This document shows, piece by piece, positions 22,832-33,591 of a stretch of DNA of 37,828 bases. Position numbers and translations under genes: made by a program. Source of the stretch: a virus; IMG/VR virus record IMGVR_UViG_3300043772_001253, positions 1 to 37,828 of that record, one strand, 5' to 3'. How positions within the stretch are numbered: the first letter of the stretch is position 1; every line of letters starts with the position of its first letter. The notes beneath the pieces were generated by a model. It did not search any database. It was not told the DNA's origin and saw only the letters and a list, made by a program, of their open reading frames with translations.

Positions 22832-22873
22832 GTTGCGAAGGTATTACGTGTTTTTCTTTAGTTGTGTAATTAG

Positions 22874-23026
22874 ATGGACTTTTTAGAAATAAAGTTTTAC
22901 AACAAAGAATATAAGAAATGGCTAAGAGTGGCTACTGTCGAGCTTAATGGGTATTTCAAGGTTTCAGATTTCCACTCGGTACTACAAACCTTTTTTCCCG
23001 CCAATTCTCATATTCTAATGCGTTAA
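22874..23026 (+). CDS. Lone plus-strand small protein
   Basis: 50 residues, ATG 22874 to TAA 23026, the only likely gene on the plus strand. The product starts MDFLEIKFYNKEYKKWLRVA and continues VELNGYFKVSDFHSVLQTFF; it has a balanced, protein-like composition with alternating strand pattern. It fills almost all of a 191-base gap in which the minus strand shows no frame. Its stop overlaps the convergent stop of the 23023 gene through the palindrome TTAA. Upstream, TAGTTGTG (one mismatch to TAnnTTTG) ends seven bases before the ATG with a TTG 23 bases earlier. A regulatory role is possible because it is divergent from 22831. Unproven, no family. Confidence 0.5.
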   Translation: MDFLEIKFYNKEYKKWLRVATVELNGYFKVSDFHSVLQTFFPANSHILMR

Positions 23027-25981: not shown

Positions 25982-25983
25982 GG

Positions 25984-26110
25984 TTACGCTATTTTACCTT
26001 GTTTAACCAACTTAGCGTAGTAGTATTCCACGCCTTCATCATTTAGCCCGCCAATAAATACATTGGCTTTTTTTAGGGCTTCACACTTTTGTTCGATTGA
26101 AAGATTCATT
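25984..26110 (-). pseudogene. Small gene interrupted by an apparent one-base frameshift
   Basis: ATG 26110 opens a frame that stops after nine codons, but the adjacent frame is open from 26107 to the stop at 25984 and reads as good protein: SIEQKCEALKKANVFIGGLN then DEGVEYYYAKLVKQGKIA. Removing one T from the TTTT at 26100-26103 gives a continuous 41-residue protein starting MNLSIEQK. It lies 25 bases downstream of a promoter element and just before the ERF-linked gene. Either a sequencing/assembly error, a recent mutation, or a recoding event. Confidence 0.5.
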
Positions 26111-26134
26111 TTGTTTGTGGTTTAAAGTTTAGGC

Positions 26135-26192
26135 AAATATCGGGGTAGTGTTTCTAATTAAATGTTAGAAAACATACAAAAGCTAAAATAAA
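26135..26192 (-). promoter_or_regulatory. Shared early promoter element, copy a
   Basis: Minus strand: TTTATTTTAGC, TTTTGTATGTTT, 13 bases, TAGAAA, then GATATTTG (26135-26142) near -7, 25 bases from ATG 26110. The 23-base left part (26170-26192) is identical to copy b and 19 of 23 identical to copy c. It begins within the stop codon of the methyltransferase gene and would drive 26110 and the recombination genes. Confidence 0.65.
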
Positions 26193-32280: not shown

Positions 32281-32459
32281 CTCACAATAGTATAAAGATT
32301 CCCATCCTTAGTAACCGGCAACTTCTTTAGCTCGTTCTCGATTACGCTATCACTCCACTTTTTGCGCTTTTGTATTCGAGAAACGTGGGATTGTAAGTCA
32401 ACAACAGAGTAGCTGCCTTGTAAAAGTAGGGTTCGGATTATTTCTGCTCTTGTTCCCAT
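32277..32459 (-). CDS. Small winged-helix-like protein
   Basis: 60 residues, start ATG 32459, overlapping the DnaA-like gene by 22 bases. The sequence MGTRAEIIRTLLLQGSYSVV, DLQSHVSRIQKRKKWSDSVI and ELKKLPVTKDGNLYTIVR gives helix-helix-helix then a beta hairpin, the winged-helix order. It is basic. Together with its coupled HTH neighbour it forms a small regulatory pair in the early operon. Confidence 0.6.
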   Translation of the reverse strand: MGTRAEIIRTLLLQGSYSVVDLQSHVSRIQKRKKWSDSVIENELKKLPVTKDGNLYTIVR

Positions 32460-32809
32460 TGCTTGGCCATCTCTAATATCGTTTCTACTTGCTCTTTGTA
32501 CTTCGGCTCAAATGATACATATCCACGCGCCTTACTAACGTTGTGCATGATTGTGGCATGGTTTCTATTCATCAGCTTACCCATATCTAAGTACGTAGAC
32601 TGGTTAATGTACGTGTAGATAACGTAGGCTATTTGCTCCCGACATTTTACCACGTGCGGAAGGTTGGACTTTCTAACTATTTCTGCCCAATCTATTTGAT
32701 GCACTTCCATTGCTGCAATACATAGCCCCTCAACGCTTACATTGGGTAAGAATTTACGCTCGGATAGCCTTTGCTTAATGGCTGCCAGTTGTTCTGCTGT
32801 CATTTTCAT
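32438..32809 (-). CDS. DnaA domain IV-like DNA-binding protein
   Basis: 123 residues, start ATG 32809 (ATGA overlap). The C-terminal half CREQIAYVIYTYINQSTYLD followed by MGKLMNRNHATIMHNVSKAR matches the DnaA C-terminal domain, where the signature is G-x-R-D/N-H-x-T-V/I-x-H; here NRNHATIMH is nearly exact. The ATPase domain is absent. It may recognise DnaA boxes at a phage or host origin, or divert host initiation. The N-terminal half (VSVEGLCIAAMEVHQIDWAE) is helical and related in style to DnaA-like phage proteins. Family resemblance is strong, role is inferred. Confidence 0.85.
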   Translation of the reverse strand: MKMTAEQLAAIKQRLSERKFLPNVSVEGLCIAAMEVHQIDWAEIVRKSNLPHVVKCREQIAYVIYTYINQSTYLDMGKLMNRNHATIMHNVSKARGYVSFEPKYKEQVETILEMAKQWEQEQK

Positions 32810-33135: not shown

Positions 33136-33282
33136 TTATGCGAAAATTCGAGTGTAGTAATTTTTGCACTTTCTCAAAGAGTTAGTTGCAAATACACAAT
33201 GTCCAGTCGGGTCAATTAACATAAATGTTTTGCCTCCGTTATACTTGATTGTAAATTCTTTTGATTCAAAAATGGTTTCCAT
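33136..33282 (-). CDS. Small protein, first gene after promoter copy c
   Basis: 48 residues, ATG 33282 to TAA 33136. The product starts METIFESKEFTIKYNGGKTF and continues MLIDPTGHCVFATNSLRKCK. Good protein composition; begins 32 bases downstream of the -7 box at 33314, with a leader ending AAACAAACTACG before the ATG. Followed by the 32806 gene after 66 bases. Two cysteines; no recognised family. It is the first gene of the early region. Confidence 0.7.
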   Translation of the reverse strand: METIFESKEFTIKYNGGKTFMLIDPTGHCVFATNSLRKCKNYYTRIFA

Positions 33283-33313
33283 CGTAGTTTGTTTTTGTGG
33301 TTATTTGATAGGA

Positions 33314-33371
33314 CAAAAGTACAAAGCGTTTTCTATCTAAATAGCATAAAACTTACAAATGTGAAAATAAA
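33314..33371 (-). promoter_or_regulatory. Shared early promoter element, copy c
   Basis: TTTATTTT, then CACATTTGTAAGTTTT, ATTTAGA, TAGAAA and TACTTTTG (33314-33321), a full TAnnTTTG match. Same order and spacing as copies a and b. It starts at the end of the terminator T-run of the ncRNA and drives the 33282 gene and the early operon. Confidence 0.7.
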
Positions 33372-33372
33372 T

Positions 33373-33419
33373 AAAAAAAACCAGCCGCAAGGATTACCAC
33401 AAACCTCACGACTGGCTGA
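33373..33419 (-). terminator. Terminator at end of the probable sRNA
   Basis: Minus strand CAGCC (33414-33418) pairs with GGCTG (33382-33386), extended by a U-G pair, with a second short AGG/CCT stem in the loop, followed by T8 (33373-33380). The stem is short but the T-run is perfect. Confidence 0.6.
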
Positions 33420-33505
33420 AACTTCCCGATAGTGTGCTTTTTAGCCTACGGGATTAAACGACCCTAACTGGTACGCTGGTCTACGGTAAGCGTTCGGGTA
33501 CTGTT
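33373..33505 (-). ncRNA. Probable structured small noncoding RNA
   Basis: About 130 bases between a -7 box (TATCTTTG, 33510-33517) and a T8 terminator, in a stretch with no ATG usable on the minus strand. Pairings on the minus strand: ACCC 33496-33499 with GGGT 33461-33464; ACGCT 33489-33493 with AGCGT 33473-33477; CCCG 33449-33452 with CGGG 33425-33428 plus an adjoining TAG/CTA; then the terminator stem. Two domains and a terminator hairpin are typical of bacterial sRNAs. No tRNA, 6S or known family is evident. Alternatives: untranslated leader-less transcript, or packaging/origin DNA signal. Confidence 0.5.
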
Positions 33506-33509
33506 GGCA

Positions 33510-33517
33510 CAAAGATA
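33510..33517 (-). promoter_or_regulatory. -7 box of the probable sRNA
   Basis: TATCTTTG matches TAnnTTTG exactly. No clear TTTG 19-21 bases upstream, but a 22-base direct repeat ends next to it, so an activator or repressor may act here. RNA start expected near 33504. Confidence 0.45.
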
Positions 33518-33520
33518 GTA

Positions 33521-33575
33521 AACGTAAGCCTATGAACTGACTTTATGGTTAAAAAAGTAAGCCTATAAACTTACT
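33521..33575. repeat. Two 22-bp direct repeats, operator-like
   Basis: Copy 1 at 33521-33542 and copy 2 at 33554-33575 agree in 19 of 22 positions (core GTAAGCCTAT). They are 33 bases apart start to start, about three helical turns, directly upstream of the -7 box at 33510. Copy 2 overlaps the terminator stem. The arrangement suits a protein that binds both. Confidence 0.65.
33551..33575 (-). terminator. Terminator ending the late operon
   Basis: AGTAAG (33570-33575) pairs with CTTACT (33556-33561) on the minus strand across an eight-base loop, followed by T6 (33551-33556). A further 6-bp hairpin, CGTCCG/CGGACG (33583-33601), precedes it at the end of the 33592 gene. Together they close the late transcript. 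Confidence 0.7.
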
Positions 33576-33591
33576 ATTGAACCGTCCGAAA

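Follow-up and report, generated by a model that had tools for sequence, protein, structure and literature searches.

Why would a phage keep, in the longest gene-free stretch of its DNA, a small RNA with its own promoter and terminator, and what might such an RNA act on? The locus that raises this question lies in the DNA of a probable virus of Bacteroidota, recorded in IMG/VR with 37,828 bases; the record was analysed at its full length and is referred to here as the window. Nearly all genes of the window are on the minus strand. Its primase is 57-59% identical to the primase of Flavobacterium phages, and DNA similarity between the window and named phages was confined to short chance matches (E 0.3 or worse).

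The RNA unit and its surroundings

The stretch in question, 33283-33591 (309 nt), contains the RNA unit. A first-pass annotation, made from the sequence, had taken it for the only gene-free stretch; it is the longest, but the window has ten gaps of more than 60 nt without genes, two others being found at 25982-26182 (201 nt) and 22832-23022 (191 nt). Upstream of the unit are small ORFs, an exonuclease gene and, at the window edge, a large protein without a PHROG match. Downstream follow a 48-aa ORF (33136-33282, minus strand), which is a neighbour outside the RNA unit, and then the replication genes. This ORF has a promoter-like site of its own (TTTG ... TACTTTTG; 33314-33359, minus strand), which is conserved in close relatives and marks the boundary of the RNA unit. 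With an exonuclease on one side and the short ORF and its promoter-like site on the other, the annotated position, exactly between the end of the late operon and the first early promoter, holds approximately. The replication region starts with a 123-aa protein (32438-32809) that matches the DnaA C-terminal helix-turn-helix at 28 bits, below the Pfam cut-off of 31.5.

Read on the minus strand, the unit is preceded by two operator-like direct repeats, which are 23 nt long (22 bp in the annotation), 87% identical and 33 nt apart from start to start. The distal repeat (33553-33575) is palindromic (AGTAAG-N8-CTTACT) and conserved in most relatives; the proximal repeat (33520-33542), which lies over the expected -33 region, is also kept in most of them and is swapped for other sequence upstream of the same promoter in two (L042 and L048). 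Both repeats match GTMAGNNNATAGGCTKAC exactly, with no other match within the window, and palindromic repeats of the form GTMAG-N8-CTKAC (33520-33575) occur in the window only upstream of the promoter of this unit. Some relatives have a further element (ATCATACCTTAACGGGTATA...TTATCGGGTATAAA) that separates the palindromic repeats from the same -7 box. The repeats could time the expression of the RNA itself.

The annotated -7 box was recovered as TATCTTTG (33517-33510, minus strand), a perfect Bacteroidota -7 box (TAnnTTTG) located 4 nt before AACAGT. The transcribed part, put at about 130 bases in the annotation, measures ~137 nt and indeed lacks an ATG. It comprises a 5' domain, hereafter RNA A (33455-33505, minus strand), a second hairpin (33424-33453, minus strand) and an intrinsic terminator predicted from sequence and folding (33373-33415, minus strand), which consists of a 12-bp hairpin (33415-33381) and the expected T8 (33380-33373). 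With the covariance model R1, described below, RNA A of the window scores 75.6 bits, a value to be read knowing that the window sequence belongs to the training set of R1.

Structure and conservation among related phages

Taken alone, the whole RNA is not unusually stable (z = -1.41; 18 of 200 shuffles fold equally well). Both annotated hairpin domains are there as letters, with ACCC...GGGT arms enclosing ACGCT...AGCGT at 33499-33461 on the minus strand, and the second hairpin (z = -3.2), like the terminator (z = -4.9), is more stable than shuffled sequence; the named inner stem, however, is absent from the minimum-energy fold of the 5' domain, which has inner pairs other than ACGCT/AGCGT, and with z = 0.15 thermodynamic stability was discarded as evidence for this domain. 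Since folding energy alone is unremarkable, the case for the RNA rests on comparison. The window holds no tRNA or tmRNA, and no Rfam family reached its gathering threshold there. The abiF RNA family RF03085 matched neither the window, at its curated cut-off of 37 bits, nor RNA A, which has no match to any Rfam family. Weak Rfam matches at E <= 10 (IS102, CRISPR-DR2, Qrr, mir-14, MNV_3UTR) were dismissed as chance, and a CRISPR-repeat mimic or RNA anti-CRISPR (Racr) was rejected, with 14.8 bits from the best CRISPR-repeat model (cut-off 37; E = 7.9).

Close relatives were collected through the upstream exonuclease gene and the downstream DnaA-like gene, and more were added through pattern scans. 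The same 5' hairpin, RNA A, is carried by ~20 related phage contigs, in which promoter, structure and terminator are kept, with compensatory changes, in agreement with the annotation of a structured small RNA gene. A perfect TAnnTTTG precedes RNA A by 4 nt in the window and in all 17 phage loci tested. Compensatory change in the named stems had been suggested as a check on the RNA: among the phages, the inner stem shows a U-A/A-U double change, with 98% of cells paired, and double changes are seen at 6 pairs when the bacterial homologues described below are aligned too. More distant exonuclease relatives (L010-L040) gave no confident match to RNA A or to the second RNA described next, so that the RNA appears to be an accessory of one phage group.

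This second unit, RNA B, is found in 15 of the RNA A contigs, where a TAnnTTTG-type box and a terminator of its own accompany it. Changes on both sides affect 7 of its 10 pairs, and loop and bulge sequences are highly conserved in RNA A and RNA B alike. RNA B of the relatives has the geometry of RF03085 (6 bp / A / 3 bp / 11-nt loop / 6-nt bulge); that of relative L057 aligns with the full model, in identical geometry, at 24.2 bits, below the 37-bit cut-off. The layout of RNA A is comparable, apart from a longer inner stem and a loop that varies, and the second hairpin of the window does not fit this geometry. Aligned with its relatives, the window follows unit A up to 33455 and, from 33437 on, the 3' part of unit B, with ~17 nt replacing A's terminator together with the promoter and 5' half of B. 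The presence of two distinct hairpin domains in the first-pass annotation is thereby explained. The replacement still pairs with the old 3' arm of B, and the resulting hairpin no longer scores as B, for which reason an intact RNA B was ruled out here; the core of this hairpin is present in no other viral contig. The terminator hairpins of units A and B (33381-33415 in the window, and in relatives) have a common loop, AGGTTTGTGGTWATCCTT, and differing but paired stems; judged by their letters, they look like exchangeable modules. DnaA-box-like letters are present in the terminator loop, and a role as origin was considered.

Homologues at bacterial AbiF loci

Model R1 was built from 12 phage RNA A sequences only and run over ~980 genomes (some overlap) representing a phylum and two orders. 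In Bacteroidota, 34 distinct loci scored 26-50 bits with it, a count that includes one apparent chance match (L163; L066 and L084 likewise appear to be chance matches). At 19 of these 34 loci, an AbiF gene (Abi_2, PF07751) starts 13-100 nt downstream on the same strand, and six full-length AbiFs scored 179-193 bits against PF07751. Abi_2 being present in only 26 of 247 sampled genomes, the adjacency of RNA A and AbiF is far beyond chance. No adjacent AbiF was detected for the remaining 15 bacterial A RNAs; at L093 and L102, what follows the RNA is the end of the contig or the decayed start of an AbiF gene. Conversely, an R1 match at E <= 0.001 lies upstream in 9 of 30 Abi_2 loci, and many other Abi_2 loci are preceded by related hairpins of a third kind. 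The AbiFs with A-type RNAs, 13 of 13, all fall on the same side of a single branch (support 90/85); one of them was compared with 8vz6, an AbiF of solved structure, and proved to be its relative (E = 1.6e-58).

The A RNAs of phages and bacteria can be aligned over their whole length. Double changes occur in 6 of the 12 pairs of the joint alignment, in 35 cells against 9.2 in shuffles and with few in a slid-partner control, where the alignments are small, contain related sequences and yield counts of sequences rather than of independent events. Of 33 bacterial loci, 15 have a perfect -7 box within 2-7 nt of the RNA, with a spacing of 4 nt in 14 cases, compared to 0.3% of random positions. By these comparisons, it is well supported that phage RNA A is homologous, from the -7 box through the hairpin, to the RNA directly upstream of one Bacteroidota AbiF clade. 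Relative to the bacterial A RNAs, those of the phages have a shorter outer stem with mismatches, which could reflect tuning, relaxed constraint or altered processing.

RNA B also leads to AbiF. An exact scan for its core in 84,980 bacterial and archaeal genomes gave 7 matches; for 4 of them, three from Bacteroidota and one from Cysteiniphilum, an Abi_2/AbiF gene follows at a distance of 14-18 nt. With model R2, run over one order, 11 places were found, and an AbiF gene or its remains start within 18 nt in 7 of them; low-scoring bacterial R2 matches that lack the loop were ordinary terminators and were left out of the counts. The order A-B is itself found in bacteria, as an A-like hairpin followed by an abiF-like one, either before AbiF (L153, L160) or without it (L157, L103), and from this resemblance the phage A-B pair may copy a natural two-hairpin antitoxin.

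These homologues bear on what the RNA might do in the phage. The first-pass annotation had it time the switch between early and late genes, and a regulatory RNA that pairs with phage mRNAs or acts in cis would suit both the position at the border of the replication region and the operator-like repeats. Yet the genes after the RNA vary between relatives (a DnaA-like gene in some, gam in others) while the RNA is unchanged, its conserved loops match host AbiF RNAs instead of varying with phage targets, and its close homologues are antitoxin-type RNAs before bacterial AbiF; a timing role is thus very unlikely. The strong terminator hairpin would also be expected of an element that acts only as a terminator or insulator between gene blocks, for which purpose a dedicated promoter and the conserved loop and bulge of A and B would be superfluous, and which would leave the AbiF context of the homologues without a place; we give this reading next to no credence.

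Upstream of AbiFs from other clades (L119, L121-L126, L131, L145, L086), the hairpin is of the third kind (CACCCCGCTTCCCGTNAGANCAGCGCGCTCAGGGTGGGC; CCTGCCACGCTTCCCACTTGAACAGCGCACCCGGGCAGG), which had no Rfam match at gathering in the loci tested. Genes for the type I restriction R subunit (HsdR) directly follow A-type RNAs in L103 (1501-1553, minus strand) and L161 (1501-1547, plus strand), and the A-type RNAs of L104, L105 and L154 are near methylase-like genes; HsdR was called by Pfam in L103, and by eye in L161, as were the methylase-like neighbours. With 15 of the 34 RNAs lacking an adjacent AbiF and two standing before HsdR genes, the RNA A family may have contexts other than AbiF.

A candidate RNA decoy against AbiF

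The AbiF toxin is a HEPN RNase that its RNA silences in trans; the RNA of Clostridioides difficile, which has two abiF hairpins, binds AbiF and neutralises it in cis and in trans, an activity abolished by stem disruption and kept upon compensatory change (PMC12373285). AbiF is the presumed toxin ancestor of Cas13, and its RNA the likely forerunner of crRNA (PMC12737573). According to an older report cited in the latter work, a DNA region of the lactococcal phage sk1 protects another phage against AbiF. The type III system ToxIN is evaded by phages through pseudo-ToxI repeats and through capture of toxI itself (PMC3475682), and solitary repeat RNAs of phages block CRISPR-Cas (PMC10651486). Within the open-access papers searched, there was no report of phage RNA inhibitors of AbiF.

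Like known abiF RNAs (RF03085, RCd22 of C. difficile and the Prevotellaceae AbiF ncRNA of PDB 8vz6), the phage RNAs broadly follow a layout of outer stem, single 5'-side A, short inner stem, large loop and 3' bulge, and their bacterial homologues stand directly upstream of AbiF; the tandem arrangement of two hairpins is common to RCd22 and the phage A-B pair. Unlike these systems, the phage has no toxin gene and its units have separate promoters and terminators, and RF03085 leaves RNA A unmatched and RNA B of a relative below cut-off. The toxin gene that a type III toxin-antitoxin system of the AbiF type would have next to its RNA is absent from the window, and PF07751 found no Abi_2 match or toxin remnant in the window and 17 further A/B phage records (18 in all, possibly incomplete). 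The phage RNA thus resembles a bacterial antitoxin RNA without a phage toxin, in the manner of pseudo-ToxI, and it bears the comparative marks of the A-type AbiF-antitoxin RNA family as defined in the present analysis, in that it matches the RNA of one AbiF clade over its full length, both in sequence and in structure, and has its own promoter at fixed spacing.

Because the RNA is toxin-less, promoter-bearing and conserved in structure, and because pseudo-ToxI and Racrs provide precedents, the simplest reading is an anti-AbiF decoy: the phage has probably retained a lone AbiF-antitoxin RNA gene as a means of RNA-based counter-defence. The identity of RNA A rests on sequence, structure and synteny; we infer that it is expressed, that it binds and neutralises AbiF and that the phage benefits. 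After capture of an AbiF-antitoxin RNA unit, the phage would transcribe the RNA during infection, and the RNA would fold like the host AbiF RNA, bind the AbiF dimer and keep the HEPN RNase inactive when infection would otherwise free AbiF, so that the cell would not abort the infection. In the 15 related contigs, RNA B would copy the RNA of other AbiFs, so that the two units in tandem would cover a wider range; in the window phage, RNA B has been lost or rebuilt. Whether such RNAs make up a whole class of anti-AbiF inhibitors, in which captured units form arrays against different AbiF clades (A, B, perhaps others) and are swapped or rebuilt in an arms race, and whether the A-type RNA is a new antitoxin-RNA family for its AbiF clade, seems to us an evenly balanced question.

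Two further accounts start from the same RNA. It might be the relic or cargo of a phage-borne AbiF module, in which RNA and toxin once served phage exclusion and the RNA lingers after loss of the toxin; C. difficile prophages carry RNA and AbiF together (PMC12373285), and bacterial loci with a decayed AbiF beside an intact RNA exist (L097, L102, L178). Such a relic would hardly keep its promoter, structure and terminator with compensatory changes in ~20 contigs, nor come as two units of different subtype in 15 of them, and the toxin has left no trace in the records searched; we regard this origin as unlikely. Alternatively, by competing or exchanging with the antitoxin of the host, the RNA could act as a trigger through which AbiF is sensed or is redirected, for example towards rival phages. 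A trigger would bind AbiF in the same way, and the altered outer stem of the phage RNA might suit it, although a phage would gain little from keeping a trigger of abortive infection across many lineages, which renders this account highly improbable.

As an anti-AbiF decoy, the RNA would have its nearest counterpart in pseudo-ToxI of phage phiTE (PMC3475682), a phage-encoded, toxin-less, intergenic RNA that resembles a type III antitoxin and for which capture of a host antitoxin is documented. Pseudo-ToxI, however, targets another toxin, ToxN, consists of short direct repeats that form pseudoknots rather than AbiF-type hairpins, and is proven experimentally, whereas phage RNA A is known here from sequence comparison. 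Racrs (PMC10651486) are likewise solitary phage copies of a host defence RNA and act as decoys; they mimic CRISPR repeats, which the window RNA is not. If the phage RNA copies AbiF RNA, RNA-based counter-defence of the pseudo-ToxI and Racr kind would extend to the AbiF family. The phage RNA would then offer a direct test of AbiF defence of Bacteroidota against natural phages, and the pairing of AbiF clade with RNA type predicts a testable specificity. As a search principle, solitary antitoxin RNAs in toxin-less phages could point to inhibitors missed by protein-based scans.

An abiF-type RNA has also been described in the lytic cyanophage S-CREM1, as an Rfam match only, without an anti-defence reading or a pairing of subtype and AbiF (PMC9964418); a review lists its role as unconfirmed (PMC12197685). 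Solitary B-type hairpins were present in six other viral contigs (L070, L072, L074, L075, L077, L078), with outer stems that are quite different and fully paired. These contigs have no tested gene in common with the window, so that solitary AbiF-type RNAs extend beyond its phage group; Abi_2 was absent from L070, L072, L074 and L075. Two of these contigs, L070 and L072, have a further abiF hairpin after the B-type one, and in L070 it scores above the RF03085 cut-off (40 bits). Among the RNA A contigs, L005 and L049 (ACCGTTGCATTGGACTGGGG...GGCAACATTT), as well as L046, L064 and L073 (CAGCTAACGGATAG...GGCCGACCC), carry extra hairpin modules between RNA A and its terminator, which are possibly further decoys against other RNA-guarded toxins.
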